This document shows positions 35,236 through 48,191 of a stretch of DNA of 64,000 nt, piece after piece (position 1 is the stretch's first letter; each line of letters begins with the position of its first letter). The notes beneath the pieces are model-generated. The model was not told the DNA's origin and ran no database searches. It saw only the letters and a program-made list of their open reading frames with translations. Origin of the DNA: an uncultured Tateyamaria sp. (lineage in GTDB: Bacteria > Pseudomonadota > Alphaproteobacteria > Rhodobacterales > Rhodobacteraceae); assembly GCF_947496075.1 (NCBI RefSeq), contig NZ_CANMBJ010000004.1, positions 372,001-436,000 of the forward strand. The letters run 5' to 3'. The translations under genes and the position numbers were made by a program.

Positions 35236-36279
35236 CTATCCGCGATCACGCGCCATGGCGATGGCATCTGCGACGGCCCGCACAGTTTGTCCGCGCAACG
35301 GGCCTGATGCGCAGAGTTCCCATATGCCTCTGTCTTTGCAGAATTGGTTCTGCGCTCTTATGGTCCGTGCGGTCATCTCTGCGGTGATACGACCCGAATA
35401 GTACCCAAGGCCGCGCAGCTCCTTCTGAAGTACACGAACCCAAGCGTTCTTGTTGATCCAAAACGCCGTACCTGCGACGCGCGCATAGTGTTCGGTTTCG
35501 GTGTCTTGCAGTACCTTTTCGGTCTCGATCCAGAACCGACCCGGGTTCAGGTCAGCAGCCAGCCGAACCCGTTCCATCAACAACGTGCGCCGCTGGATGC
35601 CGGGTACGCTTATCAAGGCTTCGCGTTGCCGGGTGATCTGGCTCCTTTTGTCTCGCTCACGGGTCAAATAGACAAGTGCCGCTTCCGCAAACCGTGCATC
35701 CCCCTCAAGACCAATTTGCACGACGCGTTTTACAATGTGATCCGGGGCTTGTCCGCGGATGCGGTTCCAGTTGTATCTTAACAAGAGATCGCGGGCAGCG
35801 TTTGCATCACCATCACGCGCCAACACACGCAGCATATGCTGGCCCAAGGCAGGATCTGATGCCGCACCAAATGCCCGATCGATATGCGCGGTACCCAGCA
35901 GTCGTGCTGTGCCCGGGTGCTGATCGCGCGCTGCCTGTTGCAAAAGGTGCAATGCAGCGTCTGCATGACCCAGTGCCAATTCTACCCGCGCCAGCGACGC
36001 AAAAGCCCAACGATGTCCGCTTGCAGTTGCGTGTTGATACCACCGCCGTGCGGCCGTCAGATCTTTGTGCGTCCCCAGGCCATGTCGATAGTAGTAGCCA
36101 ACCCGATTGGCCGCCGGGATGTGTCCCGAGTGCGCCAACACCAACATTGCGTCAAAGGCGGCTTCCGGATCATGCGTCTCCTGCGACTGGATCGCGTCGA
36201 ACTCCGAACGGCTGATGTCAGATTGGACAGCCGACGACAGCATCAGCACCAAAATAAGGGATCCAAGAACAGAGGGCAT
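35236..36279 (-). CDS. exported Sel1/TPR-like protein with peptidoglycan-binding-like C-terminus
   Basis: A 347-residue exported protein (signal peptide MPSVLGSLILVLMLSSAVQS). Residues about 30-170 hold degenerate Sel1/TPR helices, for example AANRVGYYYRHGLGTHKDLT and ARRWYQHATASGHRWAFASL. The C-terminal 90 residues (WVRVLQKELRGLGYYSGRIT) resemble a PG_binding_1 domain. Sel1-repeat lipoproteins such as AlgK act as scaffolds in polysaccharide export, and this is the last gene of the polysaccharide operon, so a periplasmic scaffold role is inferred. AAAGGAATGTC precedes the ATG at 36279. Confidence 0.7.
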   Translation of the reverse strand: MPSVLGSLILVLMLSSAVQSDISRSEFDAIQSQETHDPEAAFDAMLVLAHSGHIPAANRVGYYYRHGLGTHKDLTAARRWYQHATASGHRWAFASLARVELALGHADAALHLLQQAARDQHPGTARLLGTAHIDRAFGAASDPALGQHMLRVLARDGDANAARDLLLRYNWNRIRGQAPDHIVKRVVQIGLEGDARFAEAALVYLTRERDKRSQITRQREALISVPGIQRRTLLMERVRLAADLNPGRFWIETEKVLQDTETEHYARVAGTAFWINKNAWVRVLQKELRGLGYYSGRITAEMTARTIRAQNQFCKDRGIWELCASGPLRGQTVRAVADAIAMARDRG

Positions 36280-36301
36280 ATGACATTCCTTTTCCGTGTG
36301 C

Positions 36302-36326
36302 GGCGGCGCCCTGTTCGAACGCCGCC
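36302..36326 (-). other. intercistronic hairpin between RTX and Sel1 genes
   Basis: GGCGGCG and CGCCGCC form a perfect 7 bp stem around an 11-base loop in the 56 bp gap between the RTX gene and the Sel1-like gene. It may set mRNA stability or relative expression of the two genes. Confidence 0.35.
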
Positions 36327-36335
36327 TGGGATCGA

Positions 36336-37919
36336 TCAAAAAATCAGCAGGTCAACCACGCCATCAACGAAGGCGTCTCCGATGTCAGCGTGATCGCGGA
36401 CCAGGATGCTTTGCGCACCCGTCAGAGAGATCAGCAGATCTCCGTTTTCGTGCTGCTCGATATGCTCTGCAGCCCAAGTCTCGATGTCAAAAACAGCCGT
36501 GCCAAAGCTGAAGTCAGTCAGATCGATCACGTCCGCGTTGCCGCCATAGATGTTGATGTCGGTGATCTCGTCACGAAAAAAGCTGTTGGTTGCGTGGAAC
36601 ACAAAAACGTCGCTGCCCTGACCACCGGTGAGCGTGTTGCGACCACTGCCTCCGAAAAGAATATCGTTTCCAGTGCCTCCATCCAGGGTGTCACCCCCCG
36701 TGCCACCGTCCAGCGTGTCATTGCCCCAGGACCCTTCCAAAATGTCCTGACCTGCGCCTCCAAGCAGAAGATCGGTACCTGCCCCACCGTTCATAACATC
36801 GCCGCCAGCGCCCCCGTCGAGGGTGTCTGCGCCGTTTCCGCCGCCAAGCGTGTCCATGCCAGCGCCACCGTTCAGAATGTCGTTGCCCTGCTGCCCCTGC
36901 AGCAGGTCGTTGCCAGCGCCGCCGGACAGTTCGTCCGAACCTGCGCCTCCGTGCAATTCATCCGCGCCACCATCGCCAAACAGGGCGTCTGCACCCTGAC
37001 CACCACGCAAGGTGTCATTGCCTGCGCCACCCGACAAAAGGTCATCATCGGCGCGGCCGTACAGCGTGTCAGACCCATTTCCGCCAAAGAGCTGGTCGTT
37101 TCCAGATGCGCCGCCCAAGCGGTCATCACCATCGCCCCCAATGACGGTGTCATCACCATCGCCGGCCCAGATTTGATCTGCTCCGTTGCCGCCATCAATA
37201 TCGTCGCTGCCAGAGCCGCCAAAAAGCATGTCGTGACCGACACCACCCGAGAGGATATCGGCACCCTCTGCCCCGTGCAGCCTGTCGTCACCCGCGCCGC
37301 CGTCCAAGGCATCGTCACCCGCGCCGCCAAAAAGGCCGTCTGATCCAGTGCCCGACAAAAGTACGTCAGCCCCTGTTCCGCCATAGAGCCGGTCAAAGCC
37401 TTCGCCACCCTGCAATGTGTCATCGCCCTCGGCGCCGATCAGACGATCATTGGCATCGCCACCATGCATCAGGTCGTTTTCGGCGCCTCCATACAATCGG
37501 TCGAGGCCGGCACCGCCCGTCATCGTGTCGGCACCCGCACCACCATAGAGCCGATCGTTACCCGACCCGCCGTCCATGTGGTCATTGCCCAAGCCACCCC
37601 AAAGGCGGTCGTCGATCCCACCGCCTGCACCGCCGCCTGTACCACTGGTTTCACCACCGATCAGAACGTCATGTCCCGGGCCACCGAATAACCGATCGCT
37701 GCCCGTGGAGCCGTTGACTGTGTCGTCACCCGCGCCGCCGCGTACTGTGTCGTTGCCCGCCCCGGCATCGACCACATCTTCGCCCGCTTGGGCATAGACC
37801 TGGTCGGCGCTGTTGCCTGATGTGATGATATCGTCAGCGGCTTTGCCATGGATCCGGTCCGGCCCTGCGCCGCCATTGATCATATCCGCCTCAGGTGTGC
37901 CGTAGATGTGTCGTGTCAT
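36336..37919 (-). CDS. RTX calcium-binding repeat protein
   Basis: A 527-residue protein made almost wholly of nonapeptide RTX repeats (GGxGxDxLx), from about residue 14 to 430. Each pair of repeats should bind Ca2+ in a parallel beta-roll. There is no N-terminal signal peptide. The C-terminal 90 residues (FVFHATNSFFRDEITDINIY, then VIDLTDF and LLIF at the end) are typical of an uncleaved type I secretion signal. It has no recognisable catalytic domain. Lying in a polysaccharide operon, it may be a matrix protein binding the acidic polymer through calcium. No HlyB/HlyD exporter genes are nearby. Confidence 0.88.
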   Translation of the reverse strand: MTRHIYGTPEADMINGGAGPDRIHGKAADDIITSGNSADQVYAQAGEDVVDAGAGNDTVRGGAGDDTVNGSTGSDRLFGGPGHDVLIGGETSGTGGGAGGGIDDRLWGGLGNDHMDGGSGNDRLYGGAGADTMTGGAGLDRLYGGAENDLMHGGDANDRLIGAEGDDTLQGGEGFDRLYGGTGADVLLSGTGSDGLFGGAGDDALDGGAGDDRLHGAEGADILSGGVGHDMLFGGSGSDDIDGGNGADQIWAGDGDDTVIGGDGDDRLGGASGNDQLFGGNGSDTLYGRADDDLLSGGAGNDTLRGGQGADALFGDGGADELHGGAGSDELSGGAGNDLLQGQQGNDILNGGAGMDTLGGGNGADTLDGGAGGDVMNGGAGTDLLLGGAGQDILEGSWGNDTLDGGTGGDTLDGGTGNDILFGGSGRNTLTGGQGSDVFVFHATNSFFRDEITDINIYGGNADVIDLTDFSFGTAVFDIETWAAEHIEQHENGDLLISLTGAQSILVRDHADIGDAFVDGVVDLLIF

Positions 37920-37978
37920 AGTCTTTATTCCTCATTTCTGGGTTGGGCGTGCGCTTGCACGCGCACTTGATGGGGCCG

Positions 37979-39814
37979 TCAGGCCACGCGAATGGGTTTG
38001 TCCGGTACGATGTCGAGACGGATGACACGTTCGAGGTCTTCGGCGCGGACATCGATCAGGATGCTGAGCATCGACTCGAGAGTGAAATAGGCGCGTAGAA
38101 CGCGGAAAATCAGATACTCTGGCAAGGCGAAGACGCCCTTTGGAACGCCGTTCAGGAACGAGGCCAAAATGGCCATGATCGCTGGAGCACCCGTAGTAAC
38201 GGCCACGATGGATTGCCAAACGATTGGACTATTGGCGTTGAAGCCCAAGCCCCATTCGAGGCTGCCAAATATGATCAACGGCACCAGCATGGCCCGCCGG
38301 GCTGAATTGATCAGCATGTAAGGCAGTATGACCTTGCCGCGCAGTGTTTTGCCGCCGCCGTAGATCAGGTCCCGGCATCGCGATGAGATGTGGTAAATCG
38401 ACCGAAACCACCGCATCCGTTGTTCACGCATGTGGCTGTAGGACGACGGGACCTCGGACACGTAGCGCAGTTTGGGGTCCACCACCGAGTGAAAGCCCAA
38501 TTCGCCAATGCGCAGCGAGATATCGGTGTCTTCGCCGTTCATTCCTTCGACGAAACCACCAAGGTACCGGGGATGATGCGTGCGGTAGACCACGAACATG
38601 CCAGGGATGCCGACGACGCCGTTCACAGCACCCATTGCCACGGAATAGAAGCCATGTTTGACCAGCACTTCGAGCAAGCGGGCCCGATCAAAAAGGGCGC
38701 CGCCCGGGGGCACGGGTACACCCCCCACGACACCGACGCTTGGATCCGTGAAATACGGCATGGCGCGGGTGAAATTGTCTTCGCCCACCAGTGTGTCTGC
38801 ATCGACGCGCACCAGAAACTCGGTTTCGCATGCATCAAGCCCTGCATTGAGCGCATTAGACTTTCCAGGTTTGGGCACGTTGATCACGCGTCCCTTGGCC
38901 GCCTTGCAGGCTGCCAGCGTTTCACGGGCAATCTCTTCGGTATCGTCGGTAGAGTTGTTGTTCATGATCAGGATGTGAACGTCACCACCGTAGTGGGCAG
39001 CCGCGCGATCCATGGCGTTGATCGTGTCACGGATGATGTAGCTTTCGTTGTGTGCAGGCACGATGACCGACACGGGCGGCTTGAACTCTGGCGTGTTGGC
39101 CGTCAGCACGTCGTAGATTGCCAGCAGATAAAGCTGCCCGAACAGCACAGGCAGGAACAGGAAAACGCCCGGGCCGATCCCGCCCAACAGGGTCCAGTCG
39201 CGCATCAATTGCACAAGGTAAAGGTCCATCCCGCCCACCCAGATGGCGACGCCAGCCGCGATCACGATGGTCACGCCAAGACGGAGAAATGCCCGGAGTT
39301 GGCTGACGGGTATATGTTCGATCCGGATGCGGGCCGGCATGAACCCGCGCTCCAGCAGCTTGAAGGAATAGACGGCAAAGCCGAACAAACCTGACGTGAT
39401 CGCGCTGAAATGCAGCGACAAAGACGAGCCGATCAGATGGTGCGCGGTCGCATTGGCCAAATCGAACACAGCACAGCCAGCCAGAAAGGTCAGCGTCATG
39501 TCTAACCCGAAGAGTATACGGCCACGTGCACCGCCAGAACTGAAAGCGGCAAATGCTGCGAAGAACGAAATCAGAAAGATGCGGATCGCGATGGCATGGC
39601 GACCGGTATGCTGGGAAAAGACGTAGTCATGGTTTGGAAAGATCTGGGCAACCGTGTCGGTGTTGATCAGCCAAAGCTGAACGGCAGCCAACACGGTGAA
39701 AACGGCCAACATGCGTGGCGCCTGCCACACGGAAACAGGGCCAGCGAACCGCTTCGGCGCACTGTCGACCGAGATGTAATTGATCTGTTCGCGCTTGTCG
39801 TCGGCGGTGGTCAT
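37979..39814 (-). CDS. processive family 2 glycosyltransferase (polysaccharide synthase)
   Basis: A 611-residue inner-membrane synthase. About six membrane segments precede residue 235, the GT2 domain spans about 247-470, and three to four membrane segments follow. Catalytic landmarks are VSVIVPAHNE, KPGKSNALNAGL, the DAD motif (338-340), GEDTD (427-431) and EQRMRW (464-469), a QxxRW-type motif of processive enzymes such as BcsA, Alg8 and HasA. No PilZ domain is seen. Its ATG overlaps the stop of the BcsB-like gene by four bases. The polymer is unknown. Confidence 0.88.
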   Translation of the reverse strand: MTTADDKREQINYISVDSAPKRFAGPVSVWQAPRMLAVFTVLAAVQLWLINTDTVAQIFPNHDYVFSQHTGRHAIAIRIFLISFFAAFAAFSSGGARGRILFGLDMTLTFLAGCAVFDLANATAHHLIGSSLSLHFSAITSGLFGFAVYSFKLLERGFMPARIRIEHIPVSQLRAFLRLGVTIVIAAGVAIWVGGMDLYLVQLMRDWTLLGGIGPGVFLFLPVLFGQLYLLAIYDVLTANTPEFKPPVSVIVPAHNESYIIRDTINAMDRAAAHYGGDVHILIMNNNSTDDTEEIARETLAACKAAKGRVINVPKPGKSNALNAGLDACETEFLVRVDADTLVGEDNFTRAMPYFTDPSVGVVGGVPVPPGGALFDRARLLEVLVKHGFYSVAMGAVNGVVGIPGMFVVYRTHHPRYLGGFVEGMNGEDTDISLRIGELGFHSVVDPKLRYVSEVPSSYSHMREQRMRWFRSIYHISSRCRDLIYGGGKTLRGKVILPYMLINSARRAMLVPLIIFGSLEWGLGFNANSPIVWQSIVAVTTGAPAIMAILASFLNGVPKGVFALPEYLIFRVLRAYFTLESMLSILIDVRAEDLERVIRLDIVPDKPIRVA

Positions 39815-41370
39815 GACGCCACCCCGCCAATTTCAATGCCGGCCGGGGCGATCAGCAAAAAGGCGCGTGTTGCGGGCAAACCTTGGCCCGGTTGCAAAGG
39901 GCGCAGATCGACGGTGCCAGTGTCAGCGCCTTGGATCAGAACCCATACTGATCCGCTCTCTGGCAAGGATGGGTGCATGTCACCCGGGTTCACAATGACA
40001 ATATGCGCCGTCTGCTGCGCGGGTTTTAGAGTGGCGGATGGCGGCGCGATCTGCGCCAACCAACCGGCAATCTGTTCTGCTTGCATTGCAGTCAGCGACG
40101 CCGTCAAGGAAACATAGATCGGATCCAGTGCTCCAAGAACTGCGCGCAGGTCATCAATCGGTCCTGCGTAAACATCTTCGCCTGGCACCAATTGCGTTTC
40201 CGGCAGCATCTCTGCCACCAACTCGGGACCTTGATCGCACACACCGTTCCGCTCGGCGTTAGTGGTGGCGACGATCTCAATCTGGTTGTGCGCACCTTGC
40301 CAGTCCGCTGGCAGATCGATGCGGGCCTCGTATTCCCTTTGCTTTGACTTGAAGCTGTCCTGCAGAAGCAAGCGATTGTTCAGTGTCACCGTAAGTGACC
40401 ACAGGTGATCGCCGAAAAGATCGCCAAGAGCCAGTCGTACATCCAGGTAAGCCGGGATGCGCTGCTTGCCGCCGTCTTCAAGCGAGTAGCGCGCGCGCCA
40501 AGCCGTGGCGTGATGAAACCTGCGCACACCGGCATTCACACCGCTCTGCGCCAAGGCTTGGGGATCGTCCACGGTGGGTGCAGAAGCGCCGGAAACAGTC
40601 GCCAACACCTCGCGCAGGGCAACTGTGGTCAGTGCGTCCTCTTCGCCTGCCACCAGAAAAAAGGTGCGCAAACCATGCCGCTTTGCATCCACGCCCAGCA
40701 ACAGACGGCGCAACTGTTCGTCCCGTTGAAGCCACGCAGGCCACGACACCCGCACCACATCGCCCCACGCGTGGACGCGGTCTCGGGCGCTGACAAGTGG
40801 TTCATTCAATGTGAGGTGAAGAGCGCTGGTCGTCTCGATCTCGACGATGGCGGCGATACCGTCTTCTGGTCCGCACTGCTGTTGGGTGTCAGTGCCTTGC
40901 AGTGAGAAAGAGACGACCAGCTGGTCACCCGCAAAATCCGACAGTGACAACGGAATTTGCAGGGACCGTCCCGCCTCGCCCGGACGCAGCAACAGTTCGC
41001 CCCGGCGGGTATTGTGGATCGAGATGCGCAGCACCCCTTCCACCCCGGCCAGAACCTGAGTTGTCGCATTGATTTGGAGGTATCCGGACGTCGGGCGTGC
41101 ATCTTTGGGGAAGGTGAACGCGACGCTTTGATAGGCGGGAAAACCAGCCAGGATCACGGGGTCATCCGGGTTGGATCGAAGGATTTCAGCCGTGTCGTTG
41201 CCCGGGGCCGATGCCGCCAGGCGGTGTTCGAACACCAGCTGCGGTCCGGCTACGATCTGCCGGACCATGTGTTGACCTTGTTCCAGAATGTTCATGGTTG
41301 AAAGCAGGAGGGCAACGCCTGCCAACAAAAAACCCATAAGCCCAATGCCGATCATGCGCATGGCTGTCAC
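39811..41370 (-). CDS. BcsB-like periplasmic polysaccharide synthase partner
   Basis: A 519-residue protein with an N-terminal membrane anchor (about residues 7-27) and a large periplasmic part. The arrangement resembles cellulose synthase subunit B: a jelly-roll-like beginning with PTSGYLQINATTQVLAGVEG and an inner domain with a second carbohydrate-binding-like unit (LTVTLNNRLLLQDSFKSK). It lacks the C-terminal membrane helix usual in BcsB. Co-translation with the glycosyltransferase (ATGA overlap) supports a synthase complex in which this protein guides the emerging polymer. The identification rests on layout and context more than on identity. Confidence 0.65.
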   Translation of the reverse strand: MTAMRMIGIGLMGFLLAGVALLLSTMNILEQGQHMVRQIVAGPQLVFEHRLAASAPGNDTAEILRSNPDDPVILAGFPAYQSVAFTFPKDARPTSGYLQINATTQVLAGVEGVLRISIHNTRRGELLLRPGEAGRSLQIPLSLSDFAGDQLVVSFSLQGTDTQQQCGPEDGIAAIVEIETTSALHLTLNEPLVSARDRVHAWGDVVRVSWPAWLQRDEQLRRLLLGVDAKRHGLRTFFLVAGEEDALTTVALREVLATVSGASAPTVDDPQALAQSGVNAGVRRFHHATAWRARYSLEDGGKQRIPAYLDVRLALGDLFGDHLWSLTVTLNNRLLLQDSFKSKQREYEARIDLPADWQGAHNQIEIVATTNAERNGVCDQGPELVAEMLPETQLVPGEDVYAGPIDDLRAVLGALDPIYVSLTASLTAMQAEQIAGWLAQIAPPSATLKPAQQTAHIVIVNPGDMHPSLPESGSVWVLIQGADTGTVDLRPLQPGQGLPATRAFLLIAPAGIEIGGVAS

Positions 41371-41392
41371 CGTTTGGTTGAAATTGAGATAT

Positions 41393-41438
41393 CTCTCTCA
41401 CGCGGGGCCCACCTCCAAGCAGGCGCAGCGTGAGAGAG
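41393..41438 (-). other. 11 bp intercistronic hairpin in the polysaccharide operon
   Basis: CTCTCTCACGC (41393-41403) pairs perfectly with GCGTGAGAGAG (41428-41438), with a 24-base loop, in the gap between the SqdB-like and BcsB-like genes. No T tract follows on the minus strand, so an mRNA processing or stability element is more likely than a full terminator. Confidence 0.5.
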
Positions 41439-41444
41439 GGTTGA

Positions 41445-42665
41445 TCAGGCCGCTTTGCGTGCTTTCGGAGGGACGACGCCCGGGCGCTGATTGTCGGTCC
41501 ACGTCGACACACAGGGGATCATCCGGCGAATGCAGCGGTCGGCGTATTTGGCCGCGATCTGCTGCGTTTCGTCGATTAGGCCCTGTGCCAGCGTGACCGG
41601 TTGCAGACCCAGAGAGAGAAAGGTCTTGTTCGAGACGCGCAGGTCATTTTCGGCCGCCTCGTTGCGGGGATTGTCCACATAGGCAATGGATGCGCCTGAT
41701 GCGTCTGCCACCAGTTTTGCCAGCGACCGCACTGTGTGGGTTTCGGTCATCTGGTTCAGGATTGCGACTTTGCCGTCCTTGGCGGGTGGATTGTTAACGG
41801 CCAAGGCAAGGCATTTCACCGTATCCTGAATATGGATGAACGCGCGGGTTTGACCGCCGGTGCCATGCACCGTCAGGGGGTGACCAACCACCGCCTGCAT
41901 CAGAAACCGGTTCAGGACGGTGCCATAGTCGCCGTCATAATCGAAACGGTTGATCAGACGTTCATCAAGGCGGGTCTCTTCCGTCTGGGTTCCCCAAACA
42001 ATACCCTGATGCAGGTCCGTGATGCGCAGCCGGTCATTCTTGGCATAGAACTGGAACAGCAGCTGATCCATGGACTTGGTCATGTGGTACACGCTGCCCG
42101 GATTTGTGGGGTACAGAATGTCCCGCTTCATGATCTGCTTGTCATCGCCGGGGACATAGACAGGCAGGTAGCCTTCGGGAATTTCCAACCCGTCATCGTC
42201 ATAGCCGTAGACCCCCATGGTCCCCAGATGGACAAAGTGTGGGTCCAGGCCCAGCTCAACCGACGCTGCAAGCAGGTTGTGTGTGCCGGAGATGTTATTG
42301 TCGACCGTGTAACGCTTTTCGCTCGCGCCTTTCATCGAATAGGGGGCGGCGCGCTGTTCGCCGAAATGGATGATCGTGTCGGGCTTGCTGGCTGCCAACA
42401 ACGCGGTCACTGCGTCAAAGTCGCGGGCCACATCGATGTTTTCAAAGCGGATGGTCCGACCGGTATGCTCTTTCCAGGCGGCAATGCGATCGTCCATGGA
42501 TGCGATGGGGGTCAAGCTGTCCGCCCCCATCTGCGCGTCGATGTCACGGCGCGATAGGTTGTCGACGATGGTGATGTTGTGCCCCTGTGCCGACAGGTGC
42601 AGTGCCGTGGGCCAACCACAAAAACCGTCGCCACCAACCACAATAATGTCTTTTGAATATTCCAT
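41445..42665 (-). CDS. UDP-sulfoquinovose synthase-like epimerase (SqdB/SQD1 family)
   Basis: A 406-residue short-chain dehydrogenase-fold enzyme matching SqdB/SQD1. The NAD motif is GGDGFCGWPTALHLS (11-25), followed by DNLSRRDID, SLTPIASM and FGEQRAAPYSM (101-111). The active-site residues align with the plant enzyme: Thr149 in LGTMGVYG and Tyr193-His194 with Lys197 in VYHMTK. The NRFDYDGDYGTVLNRF and GHPLTVHGTGGQTRAF segments are also diagnostic. SqdB converts UDP-glucose and sulfite to UDP-sulfoquinovose. The usual lipid partner sqdC/sqdD is absent; instead the gene heads a polysaccharide operon. Confidence 0.82.
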   Translation of the reverse strand: MEYSKDIIVVGGDGFCGWPTALHLSAQGHNITIVDNLSRRDIDAQMGADSLTPIASMDDRIAAWKEHTGRTIRFENIDVARDFDAVTALLAASKPDTIIHFGEQRAAPYSMKGASEKRYTVDNNISGTHNLLAASVELGLDPHFVHLGTMGVYGYDDDGLEIPEGYLPVYVPGDDKQIMKRDILYPTNPGSVYHMTKSMDQLLFQFYAKNDRLRITDLHQGIVWGTQTEETRLDERLINRFDYDGDYGTVLNRFLMQAVVGHPLTVHGTGGQTRAFIHIQDTVKCLALAVNNPPAKDGKVAILNQMTETHTVRSLAKLVADASGASIAYVDNPRNEAAENDLRVSNKTFLSLGLQPVTLAQGLIDETQQIAAKYADRCIRRMIPCVSTWTDNQRPGVVPPKARKAA

Positions 42666-42816: not shown

Positions 42817-45354
42817 TTATGGTGTCTGAGATGCGTGCTGCAACACCGCGTTCACCCGGGTTTGAGACGTTTCTTTTTCCGCCTCTAGACGACACACCCA
42901 AGAATCGTAGTCCTGCAAGGCTTCGGCACGCGCTTGAGTTTCCATGTCGAACAGGATCGCTTCCAGATCCAACTGGCCCAACAGCGACGCCGCGCCCTTT
43001 GCCCTGTGCACTGCCTCAGCCAGCGTGGCCTGATCCGGCATTGTGACCTGCGCGCGCAAGAGGTCGAACAAGTTCGTCATTTCACGGAAAAAGGCGTCCG
43101 CAGTGGATCGCACTTTGTCGGGGCCTAACAGGTCAATCATTTCCGTCAGCGCTTCGGGGTACTGCACACCGTCCAGTCTGGAGGTCGGGCCTGCCGACAC
43201 TTCAGACAACACACTATGAAGGGCGTCCAGCCGAATAGGTTTGGTATGGAACCGGTCCATGCCTGCATCAACGGCCTGCTCGCGGTACTCTTCGCGCCCG
43301 TGGGCCGTCAGGCCGACAATCAAAGTGTTTGCGTTCCTGCCACCGTCAGACCGCAAATGCCGGGTCGCTTCGATACCGTTCATGACAGGCATGCTGATAT
43401 CCATAAAGATGATATCGAACGCGATCGCGTTGGCGCGTTCGATCGCGTCAGCGCCGTTCACGGCCTCCTGCACGGAATGCCCCATCGAATGCAGCATGTC
43501 GCTTAGCACACTGCGATTGATCGAATTGTCTTCCACAATCAGAACCGAACAGACCTTGTGACTGGGCCGATCATCCTCGCCCGTCGCGGGTGCCTTCTCC
43601 GACACCGCTTCGCTGCGTTTCAAGGGCAGAGAAAGAACAAAGGTTGAGCCTTCGCCCGCGACGCTCTTGACCGACACATCGCCCTCCATGGCGCGGGCAA
43701 TGCGGCGTGAAATAGACAGGCCCAGACCATCACCGCGCGCCTGACGTCCCTCGGCAGCGGCATGGGCAAAGAAGTCCTCGAACACCTGTTCGTGTTGATC
43801 GGGCGCAATACCAATGCCTGTGTCGGTGACCGCAAAGCGTAGGGAAGACGTATCAGGCCCGTGGATTCCGGTGACGTCGACCGTGATGCCTCCCTGTTCC
43901 GTGAACTTGATCGCGTTGCCAATCAGATTGGTCAGGATTTGCCGGATGCGCCCTGCATCGGCATTGTACGGCCCACGCATCGCAGGCGCGATGTCGAGCA
44001 TAATCGACAGCCCCTTTTCCCGCGCCAGTGGTTCGAACATGTCGATGACGCCCTGCATCAGAGCGGTAAGCCGGAATTCCTGCAGGTTCAGTTGCAGATT
44101 GCCCGTTTCAATCCGGGTGATGTCCAGCGCTTCATTGACATGCTCCAGCAGTACCTCGCTTGATGAGGTTGCGATGTTGGCATAGCGTGTTTGTTGATCG
44201 TTCAGAGCAGTTGTCTTCAGCAAGTCGAGCACGCCCAGAATACCGTTCAAGGGTGTGCGCATCTCGTGGCTCATTACTGTCAGGAACTGCGACTTCGCCT
44301 TGTCGGTGCGTTCGGCGCGATCCCGGGCATCAATCAGCTTTTGCTCGTTGATCTTTCGTTCGCTGATGTCGCGAATATAGGCGATGAACGTAACGTTATC
44401 TCCGTCCTGCGCAGTCGTGATGTTCAACTCGACGGGAAACTCCTCGCCCGACTTCCGCAAGGCGGCCAGTTCCACCCGCCCGGCATCGACGACCCGCGGC
44501 TGGCCGGTTTTCAGATAACGTCGCATGCCGTTATGATGCGCATCCCGCATACGGTGTGGAATGAAGGTGTCTTCCATTGTCAGGCCGATTATCTCGTCCC
44601 GCTGCCAGCCGAACACACGTTCGGCAGAGCGATTAAATCCGATGATCCGCCCCTCCACATCCGCAGTGACGATGGCATCAAGAGAGGCAGCGACCGTCGA
44701 CGACAGTTGTTTTGAGGACGCTGAAAGCGCTGCATCGCGCCTGGCCGCACGCAGCAACAGCCTGTCCAATACGACCATCAGGGCGGCCATCAGGATGAGA
44801 AGCACAATGGCGACACCGCCAGTCCTGATCAGCTGGCTCGCAAACTGGGCGCGCCGTGCCTCGGACCGTTCCGCCCCCAACCGGATACCCAACAACGCGA
44901 TATCCCGGACAGCGGGTCTCACATCCCGCACGTCACGTTGCAATTGGGCTAAAGCCGCATCATCCAGTGCCCCCGGCGCATCCAGCACGGCAATCGCCTG
45001 TTCTGCAAAGGTATTGATCGGTGCGATCAACGCGCCGGCCTGCTGGCTTTCGCCAAAGATCTCGGCCGACCGGCCCGAGTTGATGATGTTCAGACGGCTC
45101 AACGCAATGTCGATCCGCAATCGCACCTCATCCTCGGGATAGGTTCCTGCAACGACCTGATCCGTCAGCATAGCATCAAGGTTCGCAAACTCCGTGTCTA
45201 TCTGCGAGATGCTCCACTGCGTGTTGTCCCCCGCGGCGCGGGACAGGGCCTGGACCTGTGACACCAGGCTTGTCACCATCACAGCCAACAAAAGAAAGAG
45301 CAGGCAAATGCCTGCTAGAACCGAAAGCCGGTAAAGGTTCAGCTTTTGCGTCAT
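42817..45354 (-). CDS. hybrid histidine kinase with receiver and HPt domains
   Basis: An 845-residue inner-membrane phosphorelay kinase. Membrane helices at about 9-31 and 179-200 enclose a helical periplasmic sensor region of roughly 145 residues. A PAS domain (about 215-335), HisKA with His363 (VMSHEMRTPLNG), HATPase (about 470-590, with DTGIGI and GDGLGLSI), a receiver (about 605-725, Asp in FMDISMPVMNG) and a C-terminal HPt domain (VHRAKGAASLLGQ) follow. The HPt should pass phosphate to a separate regulator, most simply the LuxR-type protein at 46051. It lies 46 bp downstream of a PruR-like secreted protein on the same strand. Confidence 0.93.
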   Translation of the reverse strand: MTQKLNLYRLSVLAGICLLFLLLAVMVTSLVSQVQALSRAAGDNTQWSISQIDTEFANLDAMLTDQVVAGTYPEDEVRLRIDIALSRLNIINSGRSAEIFGESQQAGALIAPINTFAEQAIAVLDAPGALDDAALAQLQRDVRDVRPAVRDIALLGIRLGAERSEARRAQFASQLIRTGGVAIVLLILMAALMVVLDRLLLRAARRDAALSASSKQLSSTVAASLDAIVTADVEGRIIGFNRSAERVFGWQRDEIIGLTMEDTFIPHRMRDAHHNGMRRYLKTGQPRVVDAGRVELAALRKSGEEFPVELNITTAQDGDNVTFIAYIRDISERKINEQKLIDARDRAERTDKAKSQFLTVMSHEMRTPLNGILGVLDLLKTTALNDQQTRYANIATSSSEVLLEHVNEALDITRIETGNLQLNLQEFRLTALMQGVIDMFEPLAREKGLSIMLDIAPAMRGPYNADAGRIRQILTNLIGNAIKFTEQGGITVDVTGIHGPDTSSLRFAVTDTGIGIAPDQHEQVFEDFFAHAAAEGRQARGDGLGLSISRRIARAMEGDVSVKSVAGEGSTFVLSLPLKRSEAVSEKAPATGEDDRPSHKVCSVLIVEDNSINRSVLSDMLHSMGHSVQEAVNGADAIERANAIAFDIIFMDISMPVMNGIEATRHLRSDGGRNANTLIVGLTAHGREEYREQAVDAGMDRFHTKPIRLDALHSVLSEVSAGPTSRLDGVQYPEALTEMIDLLGPDKVRSTADAFFREMTNLFDLLRAQVTMPDQATLAEAVHRAKGAASLLGQLDLEAILFDMETQARAEALQDYDSWVCRLEAEKETSQTRVNAVLQHASQTP

Positions 45355-45400: not shown

Positions 45401-45901
45401 TCAATCCACGACCTTGAGACGGTTCAGTTGCCAGATACTGAGCGAATAGATCGTCTCGGTCTGGTACTTGGGGTCCTGGTCGTATGGAAACACGATCCAA
45501 TAGGGCCCCTTATCCCGCACTGACATCACGTTACCATCCATACGAGTGGCGATGATGGGTACGGTGTCCTCAAGCTGGGCCAGCGGCATGGTCACCTTGT
45601 AGTCGTTCAGGGCAACCATCTCGACCGCAGTGCCTTGTGCGCCAACGGACTCCAGCACAGCAGCCAACGGCACACCCGAAAAGGTGACCGCCCCATCGGT
45701 CCAGATCGTGGACGTCGTGAAAGACTGCTGTGGCAAGGCGTCAAGATCGGCAAGCTCGAGTGTGACCGGATCAGACTGCGTGGCATCCGCGGTGATCTGC
45801 AACCCGGTAACGGATTGCGCCATGGCCGACGTGTGCCACCCCAAAAGCAGTACGAAAAAAAAGGTGATGGCCCGTAAGTGGTGACGCTTAACCATTTTCA
45901 T
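45401..45901 (-). CDS. secreted SUOX-fold protein, PruR-like
   Basis: A 166-residue exported protein (signal peptide ending TSAMA at about residue 28). The mature part resembles the oxidoreductase molybdopterin-binding (SUOX) fold, with the C-terminal block VRDKGPYWIVFPYDQDPK followed by SIWQLNRLKV. It has no cysteine, so it cannot hold the molybdenum cofactor as an enzyme. This matches PruR of Agrobacterium tumefaciens, a periplasmic pterin-binding protein that controls a partner regulator and biofilm polysaccharide. It sits immediately upstream of a hybrid kinase with a periplasmic domain, its probable partner. Ligand binding is inferred. Confidence 0.7.
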   Translation of the reverse strand: MKMVKRHHLRAITFFFVLLLGWHTSAMAQSVTGLQITADATQSDPVTLELADLDALPQQSFTTSTIWTDGAVTFSGVPLAAVLESVGAQGTAVEMVALNDYKVTMPLAQLEDTVPIIATRMDGNVMSVRDKGPYWIVFPYDQDPKYQTETIYSLSIWQLNRLKVVD

Positions 45902-46050: not shown

Positions 46051-46668
46051 ATGCCCAACATTCTGATTGCTGACGATCACGACCTCGTACGCGACACCAT
46101 CGCCGCGTATCTTGAAACCGTTGATGACTTTCACGTGCAAACGGCAGCCAGCCTGGATGATGCGCTGACCAAGATGCGCGGCTTGGATGCGGTTGATTTG
46201 CTCATACTAGATTACAACATGCCGGGCATGAATGGCCTTGCCGGTCTGGACAAGGCACGGGGACAATTCCCTGCAACCAAGGTCGCGTTGATGTCCGGGG
46301 TCGCCAATCGTGACGTGGCCAATAGCGCGATGGCAAACGGGGCACATGGGTTCATCCCGAAGTCGCTGACGGCTGTGTCCTTGGTCAATGCGATCAAGTT
46401 CATTCTGTCGGGTGAACGATATTTTCCGTTCGATTTCGGCACGGGTGATACGCGCGCAAAGCCATCAGGCGCCTTTGCCACACTGTCGGATCGCGAAATG
46501 GAGACACTGGAACAACTCTGCATTGGGCTGTCAAACAAAGAGATCGCACGCAATCTCGGCGTGCAGGAAGTTACGGTCAAACTGCACGTCAAGAACGTGC
46601 TGGCGAAACTCGGCGTGTCGAACCGAACGCAAGCTGCCCTGCTGGCAAAAGAGCATCAGCTGTTTTGA
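46051..46668 (+). CDS. LuxR/NarL-type response regulator
   Basis: A 205-residue two-domain regulator. The receiver (1-120) has the acidic pair in IADDHD, Asp54 in LILDYNMPGMNG and a Lys in FIPKSL. The C-terminal LuxR helix-turn-helix reads LSDREMETLEQLCIGLSNKE followed by VTVKLHVKNVLAKLGV. GGAGTAAAAG lies upstream of the ATG. It is divergent from the PruR-like gene and has no kinase of its own, so the neighbouring HPt-bearing hybrid kinase is the likely phosphodonor. The palindromes at 45973 and 42789 are candidate binding sites. Confidence 0.92.
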   Translation: MPNILIADDHDLVRDTIAAYLETVDDFHVQTAASLDDALTKMRGLDAVDLLILDYNMPGMNGLAGLDKARGQFPATKVALMSGVANRDVANSAMANGAHGFIPKSLTAVSLVNAIKFILSGERYFPFDFGTGDTRAKPSGAFATLSDREMETLEQLCIGLSNKEIARNLGVQEVTVKLHVKNVLAKLGVSNRTQAALLAKEHQLF

Positions 46669-47168: not shown

Positions 47169-48191
47169 TCAGTCGTTGTCGGAAAGCCGCCAGATATCTT
47201 GCTCTCCAAATCCACGGATGGATCTGGCGCCCACGTTCTCAATGTCGAACTGATCCTTGATCGTATGCGCCACTGCGTCTTGCACTGTAATCTGCATGGG
47301 CTCTGAAAACTCCTGCAGACGCGAGGCAAGGTTCACCGCAGGGCCAAAGATGTCATAGACGTACTTTTGAATGCCCACGACCGAGCCAACCACAGAACCC
47401 GTGGAAATGCCGATGCGGCACCGCCACTGGTGTGGATGGCTCAAGTTGCGCCGCATCAGGTACCGCACAAACCGGATGGCCGTGTTGGCAATTGCCTTTG
47501 AGTGATCGGGGGTAGGATCAGGCAAACCCGCGACAGTAATGTAGGCATCACCGATTGTCTTGATGCGCTCACAGCCGAACTGCTCACCAATGCGATCAAA
47601 TGCACTGTAGATGTCGTTCAATTCCGTGACGGTCACACTCGGGTCTTGTGACGCGACCATGTCCGTAAACCCGACAAAGTCGAGCATCAGAACAGAAACG
47701 GGGTCGTACATCTGAGGCGTTACGACACCGAAGGTCTTGTATTCCTCGTAGACAGAGCGGGGCATGATGTTGAGCAATAGCTTTTCCACCTGCTCCTTCT
47801 CCCGTTTGATTTCTCGCGTATTGCGCTCAACCATCATCGAATAGGAATCAATCATCGACTCCAGTTCCTTGATGCGCGTGATGTTCTGGCACACGAGAAC
47901 AAGCATATCGCCCTCGGCCACGGTAAAATCCAAGGCGATGACCAGCGTCCGGCGTTTTTTCTTGAACCGGATTTCCGATGTGTGGCGCCCGGTCCCAATC
48001 AGGTTTTCGGACATCGCTTGGACATCAAGTTCCGGGAAAAGCTGTTGCAACTGGGTGGGTTGATTTTCGCCACCAAACCATTCGTCAAACGTATCGTTGC
48101 AGAATCCGAATTGGAGGGTTTTGCGATCCAAAAGTGCAACACCTACCCCAATTGCGCGAAGCAGTTGTTCGTTTATCGCTTCAATGGTCAT
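47169..48191 (-). CDS. class III adenylate cyclase with PAS-like N-terminus
   Basis: A 340-residue cytosolic cyclase. Residues about 1-105 form a PAS-like sensor domain similar to the H-NOX-associated type, about 106-145 a coiled-coil linker, and about 160-335 the catalytic domain. Metal ligands are Asp171 (LMLDFVGFTDM) and Asp215 (TIGDAY). The purine-selecting residues are Lys211 and Asp280, the adenylate rather than guanylate cyclase pair. Asn287 and Arg291 complete the active site. It begins 3 bp after a truncated hemoglobin gene, suggesting that oxygen or nitric oxide controls cAMP. Confidence 0.88.
   Translation of the reverse strand: MTIEAINEQLLRAIGVGVALLDRKTLQFGFCNDTFDEWFGGENQPTQLQQLFPELDVQAMSENLIGTGRHTSEIRFKKKRRTLVIALDFTVAEGDMLVLVCQNITRIKELESMIDSYSMMVERNTREIKREKEQVEKLLLNIMPRSVYEEYKTFGVVTPQMYDPVSVLMLDFVGFTDMVASQDPSVTVTELNDIYSAFDRIGEQFGCERIKTIGDAYITVAGLPDPTPDHSKAIANTAIRFVRYLMRRNLSHPHQWRCRIGISTGSVVGSVVGIQKYVYDIFGPAVNLASRLQEFSEPMQITVQDAVAHTIKDQFDIENVGARSIRGFGEQDIWRLSDND

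Follow-up and report, generated by a model that had tools for sequence, protein, structure and literature searches.

A conserved sqdB–bcsB–GT2 gene trio in Tateyamaria and relatives, a probable synthase-dependent system for a sulfoquinovose-containing exopolysaccharide

We analysed a 64,000-nucleotide stretch of DNA from an uncultured Tateyamaria sp. (contig NZ_CANMBJ010000004.1, positions 372,001 to 436,000; hereafter the window) and found a minus-strand gene group headed by sqdB, a gene for a uridine diphosphate (UDP)-sulfoquinovose synthase-like enzyme, followed by genes for a BcsB-like protein and a processive family-2 glycosyltransferase (GT2). Judged from sequence, this trio probably represents a conserved synthase-dependent exopolysaccharide system in which UDP-sulfoquinovose is the dedicated donor for an acidic sulfosugar polymer; we infer both the substrate and the composition of the polymer. 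In passages of PMC9594981 and PMC12890257, sulfoquinovose appears as the head group of lipids and as a constituent of Sulfolobus N-glycans. Among the open-licence literature matches listed, none described a bacterial polymer synthase for sulfoquinovose, which is weak evidence of absence, and the sqdB–bcsB–GT2 polysaccharide system is apparently undescribed. All five open reading frames (ORFs) that a preliminary description of the window had reported were found between 42665 and 35236, on the minus strand and in the order it gave: sqdB, bcsB, GT2, and genes for an RTX and a Sel1-like protein (Table 1). Their close packing is consistent with one operon, with 74 nt between sqdB and bcsB, a 4-nt overlap of bcsB and GT2, 59 nt between GT2 and the RTX gene, and a 4-nt overlap of the RTX and Sel1 genes.

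The trio is widely conserved. A GT2 profile (A1) searched against 84,980 species genomes matched 333 stretches, of which 139 were confirmed as GT2 homologue loci; the best 80 of these 139 were kept and underlie all counts out of 80 below. SqdB lay within 4 kb of the GT2 in 76 loci and on the same strand in 75, BcsB was present in 73 (hidden Markov model, HMM, score above 50 bits), all three genes occurred together in 69, and the order sqdB–bcsB–GT2 with a sqdB–bcsB gap of at most 150 nt was kept in 68. Trio members span the Rhodobacterales, Sphingomonadales, Hyphomicrobiales, and Parvularculales. When BcsB was used as the starting point instead, matches came from 12 of 295 family genomes. Apart from the window's own genome, each of the remaining 11 has SqdB and GT2 genes next to BcsB; because 10 of these 11 are also among the 80, this search largely revisits loci found from the GT2. 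The four GT2 loci with no SqdB nearby belong to Pontivivens (L128), Devosia (L132), Tateyamaria omphalii (L140), and Hoeflea (L151), and each of these genomes holds an SqdB elsewhere (62–70% identical). In one genome that SqdB lies within a lipid-type operon (L232) and in another within the 3′-phosphoadenosine-5′-phosphosulfate (PAPS) reductase cluster that also appears as L057; the remaining two have other surroundings.

The trio also occurs on a plasmid of Rhodococcus qingshengii, where SqdB and GT2 are 62% and 38% identical to those of the window and the middle gene scores 19.0 bits on the Pfam BcsB model (cut-off 21) and 103 bits on our local HMM. A SulP-type anion transporter is annotated approximately 3 kb upstream of this plasmid trio. 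When the Rhodococcus GT2 was searched against plasmids, only the Rhodococcus record itself reached at least 80% coverage (1 of 537 matching records). At E ≤ 1e-90 the GT2 profile matched 3 of 398 phylum genomes, all Alphaproteobacteria. As a comparison rate for the SqdB near 76 of the 80 GT2s, any SqdB match at E ≤ 1e-60 was found in 33 of 387 alphaproteobacterial genomes. The 31 SqdB regions taken from those genomes comprised 2 of polymer type, 1 with BcsB only, 3 of lipid type, 24 other, and 1 without an SqdB ORF. A congeneric genome (G001) carries two complete sqdB–bcsB–GT2 operons (L055, L056), with SqdBs 84% and 67% identical to that of the window.

The head gene encodes an enzyme whose closest solved structures are those of Arabidopsis SQD1 (1qrr, 3e-97; 1i24, 3.6e-97). 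Thr149, Tyr193, His194, and Lys197, singled out in the preliminary description, are all in place, and the [ST]MG...YxxxK motif, which a passage of PMC8987622 gives as the catalytic signature of UDP-sulfoquinovose synthase, is present as T149-M150-G151 ... Y193-H-M-T-K197. Among 97 SqdB rows from polymer loci (79 distinct sequences), T149, S191, Y193, H194, and K197 are invariant, while 95 rows retain R105 (a gap in the other 2) and 95 retain M150 (Thr in the other 2). Mutagenesis of Agl3, as excerpted from PMC4388408, found His95, Arg101, Met145, Tyr182, and Lys186 to be essential; these are matched in the window SqdB by H100, R105, M150, Y193, and K197 through the SQD1 alignment and motif, the correspondence of H95 and R101 being placed by motif with Agl3 itself outside the alignment. 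The window SqdB is also identical to all ten lipid-locus SqdBs in our set at all 16 active-site positions examined. Its score on the NCBIfam equivalog model NF041015 is 333.9 against a cut-off of 575, a shortfall that says little about function because SqdBs from the sqdB–sqdD–sqdC loci of Sinorhizobium meliloti, Marinovum, and Loktanella fall equally short, at 328–338.

This likeness to lipid-pathway enzymes raises the alternative that SqdB serves the membrane sulfolipid sulfoquinovosyl diacylglycerol (SQDG) and stands beside a polymer synthase incidentally. The window SqdB is 61.7% identical to the lipid-type SqdB of the S. meliloti sqdB–sqdD–sqdC locus, and it is the only SqdB found in its own genome, where the sole other match to the SqdB model scores 42 bits. 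However, a search with the Marinovum SqdD found no SqdD in the window's own genome or in seven polymer-type relatives (0 of 8) and detected it in both lipid-type controls, and neither SqdD nor SqdC was matched at loci L050–L056; the second sqdB with sqdD and sqdC that the preliminary description had proposed looking for in this genome was thus not found. In a tree of 124 SqdB rows, repeated after dropping the long-branch rows L045, L229, and L165 and with the BcsB-only row L200 counted as polymer type, the ten lipid-locus SqdBs form a separate group with a support of 100. With SqdD not found and the SqdB neighbourhood conserved, we set the sulfolipid role aside as highly improbable. The preliminary description's proposal that SqdB belongs with the polymer synthase rather than with the lipid pathway is well supported at the sequence level. 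The polymer-locus SqdBs surround the lipid group in the tree, which, with distant SqdBs as the outgroup, suggests without proving that lipid use of SqdB arose within glycan-dedicated enzymes.

The synthase itself has the hallmarks of a processive enzyme. The GT2 matches Pfam PF13641 with 85 bits and carries DAD, GEDTD, and EQRMRW motifs, in which D338, D340, E428, D429, Q465, R466, R468, and W469 are invariant in 12 and in 28 sequences. In its predicted model (predicted local distance difference test score, pLDDT, 85.1) membrane helices flank these motifs, and hyaluronan and cellulose synthases are among the best matches in a structure comparison. A Pfam scan of the GT2 gave no match to a PilZ domain. 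The BcsB-like protein matches Pfam PF03170 with 34.3 bits (cut-off 21), and the first 22 Foldseek matches of its predicted model (pLDDT 81.9) are all BcsB chains. A BcsB profile search against PDB sequences returned no match, so the assignment draws on Pfam and the predicted fold. A search of the window's own genome with PF03170 came back empty but was insensitive, as it also missed the window's own BcsB-like protein. Canonical BcsB carries a C-terminal membrane anchor; in the BcsB-like protein a simple hydropathy scan found a single hydrophobic helix (residues 6–24) and no C-terminal anchor of the kind that docks on BcsA.

We propose that the BcsA/hyaluronan-synthase-like GT2 would polymerise UDP-sulfoquinovose and move the chain through its own channel, as its fold and motifs suggest, and that the BcsB-like protein, held by its N-terminal helix, would receive the chain in the periplasm, as its fold suggests. 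The product would be an acidic, sulfosugar-containing extracellular polymer, the linkage and export of which we also infer. Two genomes (G116 and G081; loci L085 and L086) place an SqdB beside the synthase on the opposite strand, and these SqdBs group with another SqdB lineage, whose other members, at L043, L046, and L057, lie next to PAPS reductase; the L085 enzyme is 80% identical to that of L057 and 65% identical to the window SqdB. This suggests independent recruitment of SqdB to the synthase in L085 and L086, and because a synthase of this type has here gained a different SqdB, the synthase would appear to need the SqdB product.

Several observations weigh against a sulfosugar polymer system of this kind. 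In structure comparison the GT2 comes closest to a mannosyltransferase rather than to a polymer synthase, and no outer-membrane BcsC-like export gene was recognised among the five genes; nor was BcsZ, and a genome-wide search for either was not made. By HMM, 7 of the 80 loci lack BcsB, five of them in Shimia; in the two of these seven that were scanned, an ORF for a Gram-negative porin precedes SqdB (L148:6360-7478 and L158:6246-7535), perhaps as an alternative exit path. The 80 loci are also not independent, as many belong to close relatives. A single clade of polymer-locus SqdBs was rejected (approximately unbiased, AU, test, p 9e-7), and because these SqdBs do not form one clade, the enzyme tree alone cannot separate polymer from other uses. 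PAPS reductase (over 150 bits) occurs near only 1 of the 80 loci, that of Marinicaulis, so sulfite supply is usually unlinked. At the active site, H100 is kept in 89 of the 97 polymer rows, with Gln in 6 (L080, L118, L119, L120, L122, and L124, including one subgroup) and a gap in 2, and Glu147 of Agl3, a residue whose mutant was impaired according to a passage of PMC4388408, corresponds to Val152 in the window SqdB. Val152 is not decisive because Val occupies this position in all ten lipid-locus SqdBs, as it does in all 97 polymer rows; the His100-to-Gln change could reflect altered chemistry in those six enzymes.

These two positions bear on the alternative that the SqdB-like enzyme turns UDP-glucose into a different nucleotide sugar, such as a 5,6-ene or a product of a nucleophile other than sulfite, so that the polymer would hold no sulfosugar. 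Passages of PMC8987622 and PMC4388408 also report that UDP-sulfoquinovose synthase without sulfite acts as a 5,6-dehydratase. We consider such a product quite unlikely given the identity with the lipid-locus enzymes at all active-site positions examined. PAPS reductase, moreover, occurs in one polymer operon and also adjoins three glycan clusters with related SqdBs (L043, one of these, being the source of the query itself). The polymer operon in question, from Marinicaulis (L125), holds a PAPS reductase (PF01507, 147 bits) that is a sulfite source. In the three clusters (L043, L046, and L057), which come from roseobacter plasmids and from Tateyamaria, the SqdB belongs to a lineage of its own, and genes for glycosyltransferases or sulfotransferases lie near the PAPS reductase; these clusters probably represent another sulfoquinovose glycan route. 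Other close SqdB homologues stand with GDP-mannose/epimerase genes or a Wzy-like ligase (L204, L211, and L216), contexts that suggest sulfoquinovose in other heteropolysaccharides.

Many processive GT2s use UDP-glucose or UDP-N-acetylglucosamine, and the Marinicaulis operon contains a second GT2, both of which would fit a backbone of ordinary glucan or similar to which another transferase adds sulfoquinovose as an occasional or side-chain residue. We compared 38 non-redundant polymer loci (SqdB less than 80% identical), with ORFs chosen mechanically and a 10-locus cluster of ORFs antisense to SqdB set aside. GT2, BcsB, and SqdB recur widely (in 34, 29, and 28 loci), whereas any other cluster is limited to 6 loci at most; a second transferase is therefore not a general companion of the trio, and an ordinary backbone is unlikely. 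A bolder form of the sulfoquinovose polymer proposal, which we offer tentatively, is that the product of the trio is a linear sulfoquinovose homopolymer, which would in effect be a C6-sulfonated cellulose or similar beta-glucan and would represent a new polymer class in bacteria. The dedicated SqdB–GT2–BcsB machine would then be shared by four alphaproteobacterial orders and one actinobacterial plasmid, and the lipid SqdB would possibly derive from glycan-dedicated enzymes. Four sphingomonad or erythrobacter loci share a gene upstream of the polymer operon; the one that was scanned (L136:3308-4495) encodes a GH10 glycoside hydrolase, and those at L139, L154, and L155 were grouped with it by clustering only. 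The GH10 gene hints at a beta-1,4 backbone, and its product at L136 is possibly a polymer-cleaving enzyme.

Compared with known systems, the window locus resembles the alphaproteobacterial sulfolipid pathway sqdB–sqdD–sqdC of S. meliloti, also present in Rhodobacter, in its SqdB (59–63% identical, with the same active-site positions) but shows no SqdD or SqdC and joins SqdB to a polymer synthase and a BcsB-like protein. It shares with BcsA–BcsB cellulose synthase a membrane GT2 with DxD, ED, and QxxRW motifs and a partner of BcsB fold, and differs in having no PilZ match, an N-terminal-only anchor on the BcsB-like protein, and a dedicated SqdB; its five genes also include no recognisable BcsC or BcsZ. 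Relative to class I hyaluronan synthase (13–14% identity), the product would owe its acidity to a sulfonate at C6 instead of a carboxylate, and a BcsB-like partner is present. The Sinorhizobium arabinose polysaccharide locus, which was not confirmed among the literature matches listed, likewise combines nucleotide-sugar enzymes (uxs1/uxe) with a GT2 and BcsB-like genes, but it uses a pentose donor and has no SqdB. Sulfoquinovose also occurs in Agrobacterium lipopolysaccharide, again not confirmed among those matches. Agl3, which acts in the S-layer N-glycan of Sulfolobus acidocaldarius, provides UDP-sulfoquinovose for a non-lipid glycoconjugate in the text excerpted from PMC4388408, but that system builds an archaeal protein N-glycan and is not a polymer synthase operon.

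If the proposed system is confirmed, a dedicated polymer synthase would be a new source of sulfoquinovose, an abundant organosulfur compound, and would yield a new acidic biofilm polymer bearing sulfonate rather than sulfate ester. Such a polymer would be a substrate for marine sulfoquinovose degraders, and the sqdB–bcsB–GT2 trio offers a genomic marker for the system.

The remaining genes of the operon are less conserved. An RTX ORF (counted at four or more GGxGxD repeats) occurs in 13 of the 80 loci, immediately following the GT2 gene in 9 of these, and a Sel1 gene in 11. We therefore rejected as the conserved unit the five-gene neighbourhood for which the preliminary description had proposed a genome search; both proteins would be local additions. 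That description had also cast the RTX protein as a calcium-binding matrix component: the repeats are real (Pfam HemolysinCabind, 378 bits over 21 stretches), and its distribution makes it at most a lineage-specific partner. The fifth gene exists as an ORF, with a domain identity weaker than the Sel1/peptidoglycan-binding protein first claimed, as its scores fall below both Pfam cut-offs (Sel1, 28.1 bits versus 30.7; PG_binding_1, 14 versus 23). Its TTG start is doubtful, and a signal-peptide-like start lies at the internal Met21. Upstream of sqdB, genes for a hybrid kinase, a molybdopterin-fold protein, and a LuxR regulator each occur in 31 of the 80 loci, all three jointly in 30, and probably control the system in the window's lineage. 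The exported Oxidored_molyb-family protein has no cysteine and therefore lacks the usual molybdenum ligand. A comparable pair of kinase and molybdopterin-fold genes lies near a 42% identical SqdB in Agrobacterium (L045).

Table 1. Features of the sqdB–bcsB–GT2 locus and its probable regulatory genes, in window coordinates
Feature	Coordinates	Strand	Basis
sqdB-like UDP-sulfoquinovose synthase, 406 aa, SDR (short-chain dehydrogenase/reductase) fold	41445..42665	-	SQD1 structure matches, active-site residues
BcsB-like periplasmic protein, 519 aa, N-terminal membrane anchor	39811..41370	-	Pfam PF03170, predicted fold
Processive family-2 membrane glycosyltransferase (polymer synthase), 611 aa	37979..39814	-	Pfam PF13641, motifs, model
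RTX (GGxGxD repeat) protein, 527 aa, lineage-specific accessory	36336..37919	-	Pfam HemolysinCabind
Sel1-like protein, weak peptidoglycan-binding-like C-terminus, 367 aa, lineage-specific accessory	35236..36339	-	Sub-cut-off Pfam scores
Hybrid histidine kinase (PAS-HisKA-HATPase-REC-Hpt), probable regulator	42817..45354	-	Pfam
Small exported Oxidored_molyb fold protein, possible sensor partner	45401..45901	-	Pfam PF00174, 29.4 bits
LuxR-type response regulator, divergent, probable regulator	46051..46668	+	Pfam Response_reg, GerE

On the low-coordinate side, the flank carries plus-strand genes that include members of the aconitase, endonuclease/phosphatase, isopropylmalate dehydrogenase, and EamA families. 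Near the regulatory genes, a protein with an adenylate/guanylate cyclase domain is encoded at window positions 47169-48191.

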